Below, in pieces: positions 45,182 to 49,581 of a stretch of DNA of 64,000 bases (positions are counted from its first letter, which is position 1; every line of letters starts with the position of its first letter). Made by a program: the position numbers and the translations under genes. Below the pieces are notes generated by a model. The model had not been told where the DNA came from, did not search any database, and saw only the letters and a list, made by a program, of their open reading frames with translations. The stretch spans positions 1,530,001 to 1,594,000 of the forward strand of contig NZ_CP082918.1 of assembly GCF_019931755.1 (NCBI RefSeq), given 5' to 3'. Source of the DNA: Sutcliffiella horikoshii. GTDB taxonomy: Bacteria; Bacillota; Bacilli; Bacillales; Bacillaceae_I.

Positions 45182-45631
45182 ATGAAAGTCAGAAAAGCCG
45201 TTGGGGCAATTGTAACGATTGGTGAAGATTATGTTTTAATTTTGAAAACAAAAATACATACAACAGAAGGAAAAAAAGAAATTGAGGGAGAATGGGATTT
45301 TATAAAAGGCGGGGTGGAGGAAGAGGATTCTTCTCTTGAGGAAGCTATTTTAAGGGAATTAGAGGAAGAGACGGGAATGAAGGTATTTCTAGTTAAGAAA
45401 GAATTTGAAGAAAAAATAAGCTTCAAATTTCCTAAAGAAGTAGCTGACAAGATCGGATATCATTCCCAAGAGACAACCATGTTTCTTGTTGAATATAGAG
45501 GGGAAAACAAAGATTGGTTGCCACAAGATGACGAGGTCAGTGAGATTGGTTTTTTCAAAAAAGAAGTGGTGCTTAGAAAGCTTGCACACGAGGAAACAAG
45601 GAAATATTTCAAAAAGCATTGTTTGAATTAG
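45182..45631 (+). CDS. Nudix hydrolase
   Basis: The 149-residue protein has the Nudix box, here GGVEEEDSSLEEAILRELEEETGM, with the catalytic REL.EE residues intact. Nudix enzymes hydrolyse nucleoside diphosphates linked to another group, either for cleaning the pool or mRNA decapping. The substrate is not deducible. It lies just upstream of the ABC-F promoter. Confidence 0.92.
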   Translation: MKVRKAVGAIVTIGEDYVLILKTKIHTTEGKKEIEGEWDFIKGGVEEEDSSLEEAILRELEEETGMKVFLVKKEFEEKISFKFPKEVADKIGYHSQETTMFLVEYRGENKDWLPQDDEVSEIGFFKKEVVLRKLAHEETRKYFKKHCLN

Positions 45632-45633
45632 GA

Positions 45634-45662
45634 TTGACAATATGTAAAAGGGAAAATATACT
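45634..45662 (+). promoter_or_regulatory. Strong sigma-A promoter of the ABC-F transcription unit
   Basis: TTGACA at 45634-45639, a 17-base spacer and TATACT at 45657-45662. Transcription should begin near 45669, about 30 bases before the leader peptide. It overlaps the end of the Nudix gene by nothing but three bases of spacing. Confidence 0.8.
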
Positions 45663-45699
45663 AATAGTGCAAGACGATACGAGAAAAGGAAGGTACTAG

Positions 45700-45744
45700 G
45701 TGCGATGTGGAATTAATCTATTTTTTAGGAGTGAACTCATGTGA
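45700..45744 (+). CDS. 14-residue leader peptide of the ABC-F gene
   Basis: GTG 45700 has AAGGAAGG at 45686-45693, six bases upstream, and encodes MRCGINLFFRSELM before TGA. A second ribosome-like site (TAGGAG) sits within it, before an ATG-TGA start-stop pair at its end. Antibiotic-responsive ABC-F and methylase genes often have such leader peptides, at which a drug-arrested ribosome changes mRNA folding. The frame and its site are seen; the role is inferred. Confidence 0.65.
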   Translation: MRCGINLFFRSELM

Positions 45745-45760
45745 TTAATAAAATGAGAAC

Positions 45761-45940
45761 CCTGGAGAATTGGATTAGTCTGCCCGTTTTTTACCTGCCA
45801 TAAGTATCGATGTATAGTTTCTTCGCTATCCGTGATGGATTAGTGTTATTTTGTGATACTTACTTGTAGAATAGGCGTTGTTTGCATATGCAATCGACTT
45901 TTCTTTTAAACCTCTCCAGGATTCCGGGGAGGTTTTTTGT
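45761..45940 (+). promoter_or_regulatory. Terminator/antiterminator attenuator of the ABC-F gene
   Basis: AACCTCTCC (45911-45919) pairs with GGGGAGGTT (45928-45936), followed by TTTTTT: a terminator. CCTGGAGA (45761-45768), seventeen bases after the leader stop, is perfectly complementary to TCTCCAGG (45915-45922), which covers most of the terminator 5' arm. The two structures exclude one another. TAAGTATC (45801-45808) pairs with GATACTTA (45855-45862) to bring them together. This is the expected design of a ribosome-controlled attenuator. Confidence 0.75.
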
Positions 45941-45944
45941 GAGT

Positions 45945-47798
45945 GTGCCAGGCATGGCATCTATCTAGGTGGTGAAAGTCCACTGTGGGGGTACACATCG
46001 ACCAACCACTAAGGAAGCGCAAGGTACTTACCGTGAGGTAAGGGCGGGAGGAAGCGTGGAATAAAATCTTGGCTCGACGAACAGAAATCTGATACTAAGG
46101 CTCTTCAAAGGGATGAGGCTCCTCAACAAGTCAAAGTCCAAAAGATGTGCGTAACTTTGTAGGGTAAATCAGGCGAGTAAAAGAGGAAAGATAGTTGTCT
46201 TACCCTGGGAGGTCTTGCGGATGTACCAAGGTACAGTCGAAAAAGGTTTGCCGCAAGAAGTCAGCCGAAGCCATAGTAGTGGAATTATTCCATGAAGGGC
46301 TGAACAATTTATAGTGTTTCGACACCACGAATGCGTAAGTGAAGTGTTCCGAATGTGTTAATGGTGAACGTATGAGCGTATCTCAGAGGATAACCAAAAT
46401 GGAATAATCACTTACTACGTGAACGGATAGGAGAAACGAGTGTGGAACTTTTAGAACAAATACTAAGTAATCAAAACATGAATGAAGCTTACCTTCGTGT
46501 CTATAAAAACAAAGGTGCGAGTGGGGTCGACGGAATAACGGTCGATGAATTAAAGCAATATCTGAAAGAGCACAAAGACGAGCTGCGTCAGCGCATCAGA
46601 ACAAGAAAATACCAACCACAAGCTGCCTTAAGAGTGGAAATCCCAAAAGAAAATGGCAAGATGCGCAAATTGGGAATACCAACAGTAGTGGATAGGGTAG
46701 TTCAACAAGCCATCCATCAAATACTCAGCCCGATATTTGAAAAGCAGTTCAGCGAATTTAGTTATGGCTTCAGACCCAAAAGAAGCTGTGAGATGGCAAT
46801 TATTAAAAGCCTTGAATTTCTAAATGATGGACATAACTGGGTTGTGGACATTGATCTTGAAAGGTTTTTCGATACAGTCCACCATGATAAACTCATGCGA
46901 ATCATCTCTAACACAATAGATGATGGAGATGTCATCTCTCTAATAAGAAAATATCTCGTCAGTGGAGTGATGGTGAATGGAAGATATGAGACCACACCAG
47001 TTGGGACTCCGCAAGGAGGAAACCTAAGTCCACTTCTGAGTAATATTATGTTGAACGAATTGGATAAGGAACTAGAAAGTAGAGGACTCCAATTTGTAAG
47101 ATATGCAGATGACGCCCTAATTTTTGTGAAGAGTGAGAAAGCGGCTAATAGAGTGATGGATTCAATTGTACGGTTCATAGAAAAGAAATTAGGACTGATA
47201 GTCAACATGGAAAAGAGTAAAATCTCTCGTCCCAATGACTTGAAATTCTTAGGTTTTGGTTACTACTACGATAGTAAAAGTAAGAAATATCAAGTACGAC
47301 CTCATCCTGACTCCATTCAAAAATTCCAACGGAAGCTTCGGAAATTAACAAAGCGAAATTGGAGTATACGGTTGGACTATCGAATAATAAAACTAAAACA
47401 AGTCATAATCGGATGGGTTAATTACTTTAGAACTTCAAATATGAAAACAGCAATGACTGAGATAGACCAGAAGCTTCGCTCCAGAATCAGAGTTATCATT
47501 TGGAAGCAATGGAAGGTACCGAAAAAACAAATCAAATCGCTTGTCCAACTAGGAATTCCGAAGGAAGAAGCGAAAGGGTTAACTTTCTGTCGGAGAGGTT
47601 ACCGGTTCATCGGACTATCAAAAGTTATTCATAGAGCTATCTCAAACAAAAGATTAAAGCAGAGGGGATTCCCCTCTGCTTTAGAACATTATCTAAAAGT
47701 ACACACTGTAATATAAATTGAACCGCCGTATACGGAACCGTATGTACGGTGGTGTGAGAGGGGCGAAAATAATTTAAGTTATTTTCCCTCTACTCGAT
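45945..47798 (+). mobile_element. Group II intron, class C type
   Basis: The 5' end reads GTGTGCCAGGCATGG, a GUGYG-like intron start, lying a few bases beyond the terminator T run. Domain V is near 47719-47758 and contains CGCCGTATAC, where most group II introns have AGC; a CGC triad is a class C mark. Domain VI follows, and the 3' end is probably ACTCGAT. Class C introns are known to insert after terminator hairpins, as here. The exact ends are uncertain by a few bases. The intron separates the ABC-F attenuator from its gene. Confidence 0.85.
46442..47716 (+). CDS. ltrA: Group II intron reverse transcriptase/maturase
   Basis: GTG 46442 has AGGAGA seven bases upstream. The 424-residue protein has reverse-transcriptase blocks RVEIPKENGKMRKLGIPTVV, FSYGFRPKRSC, VVDIDLERFFDTVHH, GTPQGGNLSPLL and the catalytic FVRYADDALIF, then the maturase/thumb region (WSIRLDYRIIKLKQVIIGWVNYF). 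No HNH endonuclease domain follows, as in class C intron proteins of about 420 residues such as GsI-IIC. The frame is intact, so the intron may still be mobile. It both splices the RNA and copies it at new sites. Confidence 0.95.
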   Translation: MELLEQILSNQNMNEAYLRVYKNKGASGVDGITVDELKQYLKEHKDELRQRIRTRKYQPQAALRVEIPKENGKMRKLGIPTVVDRVVQQAIHQILSPIFEKQFSEFSYGFRPKRSCEMAIIKSLEFLNDGHNWVVDIDLERFFDTVHHDKLMRIISNTIDDGDVISLIRKYLVSGVMVNGRYETTPVGTPQGGNLSPLLSNIMLNELDKELESRGLQFVRYADDALIFVKSEKAANRVMDSIVRFIEKKLGLIVNMEKSKISRPNDLKFLGFGYYYDSKSKKYQVRPHPDSIQKFQRKLRKLTKRNWSIRLDYRIIKLKQVIIGWVNYFRTSNMKTAMTEIDQKLRSRIRVIIWKQWKVPKKQIKSLVQLGIPKEEAKGLTFCRRGYRFIGLSKVIHRAISNKRLKQRGFPSALEHYLKVHTVI

Positions 47799-47856
47799 TG
47801 ATTGATACTATGGCTGCTCATTTATAAACAAAAAAACGATGATGAGGTGCATATGT

Positions 47857-49581
47857 ATGACGATGATACTACAAGTGAAACAAATGAATAAAAGTTTTGG
47901 GGAACGGGATATTTTGAAGGATATCTCTTTTGATATAAGAAATGGTGAAAAGATTGGATTGGTTGGATGGAACGGCGCAGGGAAGACGACTTTGATGAAG
48001 TTATTGATGGGCTCGATCAAGCCAGATTCAGGAAGTATTTCTAGAATCCCAGCTACATTAAAGGTCGGATATCTGCCGCAAAGCACCGATTATACGATTA
48101 ATACAGATCAGGAAATGATGGAGGAAGCCAAAGAGCTCTTGCGTACACAAAGTGAGTTGGGTTTGGTTAAATCCCTTACAAAAGATGGAGCTTCCTCTGA
48201 CAACTTGAGTGGTGGTGAGAGACTTAAGCTAGCGTTGGCAAAAATTTGGACCCAATCACCACAGCTTCTTTGTCTGGATGAGCCGACAAACCACATGGAC
48301 TTGAAGGGTGTACACTGGCTAGTATCAGAACTGAACAAGTTTGCTGGTGCGGCAGTCATCATCTCTCATGACAGATACTTCTTAGATAAGACGGTTTCTA
48401 AGATTTATGAAATAGAAGACTGTAAGTTGATGGAGTATGAAGGTAATTATACAGCTTATCGTCAAGAGAAACAGCGTCGTCTCGATCAGCAAACCCGTGA
48501 CTATGGGAAGCAACAGCGAAAAATAAAAATGATTGAAGATCAAGTTGCCAACTTGAAGCAATGGTCGGAAAAAGCGCATAGGGAGGCAGGGAAGAGAGAT
48601 AATCCTGGTGAGCGTAAGCAGATGGGCCTCAAGGAGTTCGAGCGGGTAAAAGCGAAGAAAAAGGATAATCAAATTAAATCAAAGACCAAAAGGCTGGAGC
48701 TTGAACTGTCCAAACATAAAGTGGAAAAGCCGAAGGAAGAAGTCCAGGTCAAATTTGAATTTGAAACGGACGGAAAAAGAGGAAAAAGAATTCTGGAAGC
48801 GAAAGGGCTGACCAAGCAATATGGAGATCGGCTTCTCTTTGAAAAAAGTCATTTTTATGTGAAACATGGAGAAAGAATAGGGTTAATTGGTGAAAATGGA
48901 GCAGGGAAAACCACTTTTATCAAAATGCTGTTGGAACAGGAATCTACGACAAAAGGTTCTCTGTGGAAAAGTGCTTCCCTGAAAATTGCCTATCTGAGTC
49001 AGGAAGTCAGTGACATGCCTATGGATAAAACTGCTATGGAATTTTTAGACCTTATTGGATGGGAGCGTGTATCCAAAGCTCGCACGATTTTTGCGAATAT
49101 GGGAATGCATGAGGAAAAGCTCACTAAACCTCTTGAAACTCTGAGTCTTGGGGAAAAGACAAGAGTCAAGTTGGTCCACATGATTATGCAGGAATATGAT
49201 GTTTTAATCCTGGACGAACCGACCAATCATCTGGACTTACCAAGCAGGGAGCAGATGGAAGCTACTTTGTCTACGTTCAATGGTACGCTCATCGTTATCT
49301 CCCATGACCGCTATTTTATGGAGAAGCTATGTGAAAAGCTGCTGGTGATTGAAAATAAAAGAATCAAACGGGTAGAAACAGGCCTAAAAGAGTATGAAGA
49401 GAGTAAAAGGGAGCAGGTGTCATCTTCTGAAAAAGAAGCCAGAGAAAAGGTTGCGATTTTGGAGGCCAGGATTACCGAATTATTGGGGAAAATCAGCATG
49501 GTAAATAGGGATAGTCAAGAATATTCCGATATTGATAATGAGTTACTCAAGTTAATGCAATTAAAAAAAGAATTGGCGTAA
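47857..49581 (+). CDS. ABC-F ribosome-protection ATPase, VmlR-like
   Basis: ATG 47857 has GAGGTG seven bases upstream; in-frame upstream ATGs lack a site. The 574-residue protein has two ABC domains without membrane segments: Walker A GWNGAGKTT and GENGAGKTT, signatures LSGGERLKLA and LSLGEKTRVK, and LDEPTNH twice. A long charged linker (about 185-300) contains LKQWSEKAHREAGKRDN, which matches the VmlR/Vga kind of antibiotic-resistance ABC-F protein. These bind the ribosomal E site and displace drugs such as lincosamides, pleuromutilins or streptogramins. The leader upstream supports an inducible resistance role. Confidence 0.92.
   Translation: MTMILQVKQMNKSFGERDILKDISFDIRNGEKIGLVGWNGAGKTTLMKLLMGSIKPDSGSISRIPATLKVGYLPQSTDYTINTDQEMMEEAKELLRTQSELGLVKSLTKDGASSDNLSGGERLKLALAKIWTQSPQLLCLDEPTNHMDLKGVHWLVSELNKFAGAAVIISHDRYFLDKTVSKIYEIEDCKLMEYEGNYTAYRQEKQRRLDQQTRDYGKQQRKIKMIEDQVANLKQWSEKAHREAGKRDNPGERKQMGLKEFERVKAKKKDNQIKSKTKRLELELSKHKVEKPKEEVQVKFEFETDGKRGKRILEAKGLTKQYGDRLLFEKSHFYVKHGERIGLIGENGAGKTTFIKMLLEQESTTKGSLWKSASLKIAYLSQEVSDMPMDKTAMEFLDLIGWERVSKARTIFANMGMHEEKLTKPLETLSLGEKTRVKLVHMIMQEYDVLILDEPTNHLDLPSREQMEATLSTFNGTLIVISHDRYFMEKLCEKLLVIENKRIKRVETGLKEYEESKREQVSSSEKEAREKVAILEARITELLGKISMVNRDSQEYSDIDNELLKLMQLKKELA

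Follow-up and report, generated by a model that had tools for sequence, protein, structure and literature searches.

Organisation of the locus

The window analysed here, a stretch of 64,000 nucleotides from Sutcliffiella horikoshii (contig NZ_CP082918.1, positions 1,530,001 to 1,594,000), contains a bacterial class C group II (group IIC) intron lodged in the leader of a gene encoding an ABC-F ribosome-protection protein. Downstream of a NUDIX gene, the plus strand carries in order a promoter, the leader, a terminator (45908-45938), the intron (45943-47798) and the ABC-F open reading frame (ORF), which begins at 47857. The leader looks, from its predicted folding, like a ribosome-stalling attenuator of the VmlR type, and the intron begins 4 nt after the T-run of its terminator. 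The individual features and the evidence for each are the following:

45634-45662, plus strand: promoter TTGACA-17-TATACT (promoter scan; kept in relatives)
45688-45693, plus strand: GGAAGG, likely ribosome-binding site of the upstream ORF (uORF) (sequence; present in L092-L106)
45705-45716, plus strand: three-codon uORF ATG TGG AAT TAA, Met-Trp-Asn (18 of 18 relatives' leaders)
45712-45779, plus strand: anti-antiterminator hairpin (stem-loop 1, SL-1), basal helix 45712-45718 with 45773-45779 (folding; all 7 basal pairs present in each of the 18 leaders, counting G-U)
45761-45768, plus strand: antiterminator 5' arm CCTGGAGA (nascent folding, covariation, footprint control)
45908-45938, plus strand: attenuator terminator, hairpin 45908-45935 and T-run 45933-45938, also the 5'-exon hairpin of the intron (folding, relatives)
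45913-45920, plus strand: antiterminator 3' arm TCTCCAGG, which is the 5' arm of the terminator hairpin (folding, covariation)
45939-45942, plus strand: intron-binding sequence 1 (IBS1) GTGA, three of four bases paired with exon-binding sequence 1 (EBS1) (EBS1-IBS1 covariation)
45943-47798, plus strand: group IIC intron of 1856 nt, present in the genome as five identical copies (Rfam, genome copies)
46123-46126, plus strand: EBS1 TCAA in intron domain I (EBS1-IBS1 covariation)
46442-47716, plus strand: 424-aa reverse transcriptase/maturase of bacterial class C, encoded by the intron (profile and structure-database matches)
47721-47798, plus strand: intron domains V-VI, RF00029 (Rfam)
47817-47846, plus strand: hairpin sequestering the ABC-F Shine-Dalgarno (SD) sequence, CTCAT 47817-47821 with ATGAG 47842-47846, all in the 3' exon (folding)
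47844-47849, plus strand: GAGGTG, ABC-F ribosome-binding site (sequence; in 17 of 18 aligned leaders, not in L104)
47857-49581, plus strand: ABC-F ribosome-protection protein, 574 aa, VmlR2-like (profile and structure-database matches)

The promoter, already proposed in a first-pass annotation of this DNA, agrees with the consensus at 11 of 12 positions. Since the promoter scan returned four promoter-like sites where 6.4 are expected by chance, that is, no excess, support for this promoter comes from its conservation in relatives (plus-strand loci).

Identity, boundaries and copies of the intron

The element at 45943-47798 is an intact group IIC intron with a bacterial class C maturase that lacks an HNH domain. 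The Rfam models RF02001, RF01998 and RF00029 (group-II-D1D4-3, group-II-D1D4-1 and Intron_gpII) all score above their gathering values within it, and its ends, GTGTG...CGAT, fit a GUGYG 5' end and a core of domains I-IV and V-VI. Its maturase matches TIGR04416 with 428 bits and the Pfam families RVT_1 and GIIM, and the same Pfam profile search gave no HNH match in the 424 residues. Among solved structures the closest is 7uim (537 bits), which we take to be the group IIC ribonucleoprotein (RNP) of E. rectale, followed by the 5hh structures, the GsI-IIC reverse transcriptase (362 bits) and LtrA (155 bits). Because the protein is far closer to 7uim and to the GsI-IIC enzyme than to LtrA, it belongs to class C; together with the Rfam matches and the insertion point, this bears out the class that the first-pass annotation had assigned.

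Four further copies of the intron lie in the same genome, and the five show no mismatch over 1856 nt, which indicates a recent expansion. These copies, combined with the empty sites in relatives described below, fix the bounds at exactly 45943 and 47798. The end is as first annotated, and the start moves from about 45945. Similar small shifts apply to the leader: the antiterminator arm at 45761-45768 and the ABC-F start at 47857 had been placed correctly, but the pairing strand lies at 45913-45920 and not at 45915-45922, and the terminator is present as claimed but with its hairpin at 45908-45935 and its T-run ending at 45938, not at 45911-45940.

All five copies stand behind a hairpin and a T-run (5/5, by eye). 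Their upstream flanks end in TTTTTTGTGA (window), TTTTTTTGA, TTTTTTGA, TTTTTTTGA and TTTTTTGG. The 5' flanks of the four sister copies contain the ends of small or large ORFs (by-eye calls in two cases), and no regulatory leader was found there, the Rfam search of these flanks matching the intron alone.

The 3' part of the maturase ORF also contains a perfect 13-bp palindrome (47655-47683) that reads as a minus-strand terminator. Comparable palindromes of 11-15 bp occur in several introns that are 84-89% identical and are absent from others, and the counterpart in L123 carries a compensating base change. Such a palindrome might shield the intron against antisense transcription.

Empty sites and target recognition

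None of the 15 congeners has the intron at the ABC-F gene: among 30 loci (L091-L120) an intron match was found at the window's own locus only. In the search of 150 genomes, none of the 15 reached E<=1e-120 for the maturase. At the looser threshold of 1e-75, G014 showed a different class C intron (maturase 48% identical) and G002 a fragment. In all 11 closest relatives (L092-L102) the BLAST matches to the 5' and 3' flanks abut or lie at most 2 nt apart, as in the empty site TTTTTTGTGATGATTGATAC, which carries no duplication. The first-pass annotation had named an intron-free homologous leader devoid of leader ORF and terminator as evidence against its reading; the empty leaders carry both the uORF and the terminator.

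In order to locate EBS1, domain I was aligned for 28 insertions with a maturase identity of 78% or more. A variable tetramer following CTCC in domain I mirrors the four bases that precede each insertion. Pairing is complete at 18 of the 28 sites, three of four bases pair at eight and two of four at two, which gives a mean of 3.57 of 4 paired against 2.30 with shuffled tetramers, and none of 5000 shuffles reached 3.57. The 28 rows comprise nine different tetramers and include identical copies, so that not all are independent. This covariation identifies EBS1 as TCAA (46123-46126) and at the same time confirms the 5' splice site.

The leader and its predicted attenuator

The leader was aligned with those of 18 relatives, 15 congeners and three others, and is strongly conserved among them. 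The fold of the 5' leader is 3.0 standard deviations below that of shuffled sequences, with none of 200 shuffles as stable. The uORF ATG-TGG-AAT/C-TAA is found in every aligned leader, and its sole change, AAC in L109, is synonymous. All 11 more distant loci likewise have one or more ATG-N6-TAA in the 400 nt before the gene, compared with 24% of letter-shuffled sequences. The 14-codon leader peptide first proposed at 45700-45744 was rejected as the conserved element, for it is intact in six of the 18 leaders; its start is lost in five (L092, L099 and L107-L109) and its length differs in seven. In L104 (genome G014) the leader appears to have lost its 3' part: the ABC-F match begins immediately behind the terminator, and the SD hairpin is missing.

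Three structures are predicted to compete for the leader. The seven basal pairs of SL-1 are preserved throughout when G-U pairs are allowed. At one position of the terminator 5' arm, four of the 18 leaders carry T in place of C, and the partners of this base in the terminator and in the antiterminator both change to match. The antiterminator has one true mismatch in each of L104 and L106, and apparent ones in L107-L109 correspond, by eye, to an alignment shift of one column. Folding together with this three-way covariation describes, by computation, mutually exclusive anti-antiterminator, antiterminator and terminator.

For the window leader and six relatives among the 18, we then folded nascent transcripts that extend as far as the 5' arm of the terminator, with or without a ribosome footprint on the uORF. 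In free RNA the predicted probability (P) of the antiterminator was 0.00-0.03. With a footprint extending to +16, +19 or +25 of the uORF it rose in the window to 0.75, 0.98 and 0.99, respectively, and in the relatives to 0.28-0.99 at +19 and 0.96-0.99 at +25. As a control, a footprint of 35 nt was slid along three leaders. P was near 1 only when it lay on the uORF or just downstream (shifts 0 to +20); it was 0.49-0.98 at +30, 0.09-0.53 at -10 and 0.00 at -20, and 0.00 at all 11 positions past the antiterminator arm in each leader.

The ABC-F gene and its Shine-Dalgarno hairpin

The 574-aa product of the gene scores 489.5 bits against NF000355 and has two ABC domains joined by an interdomain linker. 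Its best solved relative is 8buu, with 646 bits over residues 4-573 (labelled ExpZ), which is presumably N. vireti VmlR2; VmlR (6ha8) follows with 401 bits. By these matches the protein is VmlR2-like and of a putative resistance type.

The hairpin that sequesters the ABC-F SD sequence forms with P of 0.51-0.99 in 11 relatives. For the window, folding the 3' exon by itself gives 0.97, as it does when 60-120 nt of the intron's end are included; with 200 nt the value is 0.51. The ribosome-binding site, the hairpin and the ORF all lie in the 3' exon and are retained in unspliced RNA, so the earlier claim that the intron must be spliced or read through to yield ABC-F mRNA overstated the need for splicing. 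A rule-based scan, which also missed the attenuator hairpin, found no plus-strand terminator within 45500-48000; because of that miss, it is weak evidence for the absence of a terminator inside the intron.

Survey of class C insertion sites

To place this site among others, class C introns were gathered by searching the genome itself together with overlapping sets of 150 relatives, 397 genomes from the order, 398 from the phylum and 10 that are rich in copies. The two largest searches scored no more than four candidates per genome, and the sites cover part of the match places found. From 136 loci (L121-L256), 20 had no usable 5' end and 116 were kept; from 79 others (L257-L335), five were dropped and 74 kept. 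The survey holds 190 distinct sites with a callable 5' end, called by motif, of which a few are probably wrong (for example L126 and L152, inside the intron). Under a fixed rule, a hairpin and T-rich run lay directly upstream of 155 of the 190 sites, compared with 125 of 3800 random upstream positions.

Of the 189 sites outside the window, 82 were searched with Rfam, among them all 51 that have no same-strand ORF stop (ORFs of at least 70 aa) within 150 nt upstream. At least two of the 190 sites lie behind a conditional terminator: the window and L312. The figure is a lower bound because Rfam has no model matching a VmlR-type leader, and the leader of the window is itself matched by none. At L312 the intron starts at about 1143, directly behind the terminator of an S-adenosylmethionine (SAM) riboswitch (93.2 bits), and an ORF resembling cystathionine synthase (named by eye) begins some 123 nt past the maturase match.

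The survey also returned a few unusual neighbourhoods. In two genomes a class C intron follows a 6S RNA gene, at a distance of about 46 nt (L239) and 59 nt (L243), and at L283 one lies about 50 nt behind a tRNA gene. Nine introns (L150, L151, L167, L175, L196, L197, L198, L201 and L202; genomes G171 and G196, one genus) follow similar AGCTGTCTTTAAGGCAGC-type hairpins, a pattern that would fit preferential insertion into a repeated terminator-like element. At L130 (G139) and L304 (G601) the intron stands directly after the apparent 3' end of another intron, the flank ending in CTACTCGAT, in tandem copies.

Probable origin and consequences of the insertion

We consider it probable that the intron inserted recently and opportunistically, by its normal target rule, into the terminator of a VmlR-like ABC-F attenuator, that ABC-F stays expressible, and that one copy of the element thereby became incidentally gated by antibiotics. 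An intact group IIC intron would have retrotransposed into the DNA hairpin of the terminator, recognising the hairpin, T-run and short IBS1 that are usual for its class. We infer the drug response, the readthrough into the intron and the splicing as follows. A drug acting on the peptidyl-transferase centre would stall a ribosome on the Met-Trp-Asn uORF and block the anti-antiterminator; CCTGGAGA would then pair with TCTCCAGG, RNA polymerase would read through the terminator, and past that point intron and ABC-F would be transcribed on one RNA. Once its 3' arm has emerged, the terminator hairpin would re-form and serve as the 5'-exon recognition hairpin of the intron. Splicing would restore the natural leader, and ABC-F would be translatable from spliced or unspliced RNA; its position between the two regulatory elements may be what made the insertion tolerable.

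The view that the intron sits behind a regulatory terminator and is transcribed only when the attenuator is open was already part of the first-pass annotation. Site and anatomy agree with it, but leaky readthrough or a promoter of its own could also produce the intron RNA. A promoter of its own aside, the anatomy makes antibiotic gating of this copy's transcription likely.

Several results weigh against this reading. L096 hardly switches with short footprints (P 0.02 at +16 and 0.28 at +19, reaching 0.96 at +25). Footprints placed 10-20 nt further downstream also give the antiterminator, so that folding locates the sensing in the region of the uORF and does not distinguish a three-codon ORF from a longer one, a choice that conservation decides. 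At equilibrium the full 5' exon folds into the terminator in every condition (P 0.97-1.00); once the 3' arm is present, readthrough thus depends on kinetics. By the same token the 5'-exon recognition hairpin should re-form (P>=0.97); we considered the idea that the antiterminated state blocks splicing by dissolving this hairpin, but no lasting block is predicted. The antiterminator is not predicted to free the ABC-F SD sequence through an ATGAG:CTCAT helix, for which P was 0 in 11 of 11 relatives. That splicing is needed to free it through such a helix spanning the intron is likewise unsupported, as P was 0 in these natural intron-free leaders even with the antiterminator held, and the SD hairpin is entirely within the 3' exon. 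Two further points concern the insertion itself. IBS1 at the window pairs at three of four positions with EBS1, compared with four of four at the four sister sites (one with a G-U pair), which makes the attenuator a slightly off-consensus target, judging by these pairings, and may weaken splicing here. The terminator of the window, folded in the same frame as the relatives, is also less stable than those of L092-L101 (-14.9 versus -18.5 to -18.7 kcal/mol), a C instead of T at 45925 leaving a bulged A in the stem, and this strain may show a larger leaky, drug-independent readthrough.

These last two points, with a leader 1.9 kb longer, also argue for an insertion that is damaging: poor splicing would lower inducible ABC-F expression and the locus would be heading to loss or to constitutive readthrough, with the weakened terminator as an early sign. 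We hold this to be unlikely. The ABC-F ORF and both regulatory elements are intact, and the weaker terminator need not follow from the insertion, since the intron-free congeners L102 (-16.3 kcal/mol, with a similar bulge) and L106 (-15.0 kcal/mol) also have weak hairpins; the other six relatives range from -18.0 to -20.9 kcal/mol.

A broader view would be that conditional terminators are a recurring niche of class C introns, in which stalling on a uORF releases a drug-induced pulse of maturase RNP and stress-linked retrotransposition, and splicing from an imperfect IBS1 sets the maturation rate of ABC-F mRNA; we regard this as quite doubtful. It is more doubtful still that the present site is adaptive, antibiotic stress inducing the intron RNP and its mobility or splicing tuning ABC-F output. 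Polymerase must indeed pass a conditional terminator to reach the intron, and the SAM riboswitch site at L312 has a published SAM-I counterpart (PMC9481103; this and the other papers are cited from excerpts). But the intron is absent from the ABC-F gene in 15 of 15 congeners, and conditional terminators at two of 190 sites give no sign of preference. Moreover, the four identical sister copies behind terminators for which no regulatory leader was found argue against a specialised intron and show that the element does not depend on the ABC-F locus. A coupling of mobility to drug stress, as first suggested, is not indicated.

That hairpin 45908-45935 simply terminates another transcript and the leader is no attenuator is hardly credible: the lack of an Rfam leader match leaves the attenuator to conservation and folding, but the uORF, anti-antiterminator helix and antiterminator arm are conserved in 18 relatives, the covariation is three-way, the folding switch is footprint-specific, and the layout matches the experimentally studied VmlR plan (PMC9226507).

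With the opportunistic insertion as the preferred reading, the conditional terminator offers a natural case in which the shielding of a class C intron could be switched by a known signal. The window copy makes the timing of class C intron transcription directly testable in one strain, whose genome also supplies an internal control in the four identical copies that follow other terminators.

Comparison with known systems

As a general rule class C introns insert after intrinsic terminators (PMC8919778, PMC7161350, PMC10190682); they recognise the 5' exon by its hairpin (PMC7161350) and are thought to be rarely transcribed, being shielded by terminators (PMC8919778). The present element shares with them the class C maturase, the RF02001 and RF00029 domains, the target of hairpin and T-run and the short EBS1-IBS1 pairing. 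It differs in its terminator, which does not mark a gene end but belongs to a predicted conditional attenuator under ribosome control, ahead of a resistance-type gene.

The leader shares with the VmlR and VmlR2 attenuators, as excerpted (PMC9226507, PMC10201436), a three-codon uORF, an anti-antiterminator, an antiterminator, a terminator, an SD hairpin and the ABC-F gene. In B. subtilis, toeprint and expression evidence supports a VmlR leader with a tripeptide uORF (MIN), the anti-antiterminator SL-1, an antiterminator, the terminator SL-3 and the SD-sequestering SL-4 (PMC9226507), and VmlR2 leaders have the uORF consensus MK[L/Q] (PMC10201436). Here the uORF reads Met-Trp-Asn instead, and, unlike in those leaders, a 1.9-kb intron parts the terminator from the SD hairpin.

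The literature was screened by title and opening of the abstract, with subscription papers mostly outside, and within that scope no report placed a class C intron inside an antibiotic attenuator that works by ribosome stalling. The nearest precedent comes from a review of tandem riboswitches, whose excerpt describes a SAM-I and group IIC pair, set aside as a terminator insertion and potential false positive among riboswitch-ribozyme tandems (PMC9481103). In that pair, too, the terminator of a regulatory leader is immediately followed by a class C intron, but the leader is a metabolite riboswitch there and a ribosome-stalling uORF here; the excerpt mentions no effect of the arrangement on expression. 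The intron and the attenuator are each of known kinds; their combination is new, with a close precedent at riboswitches.

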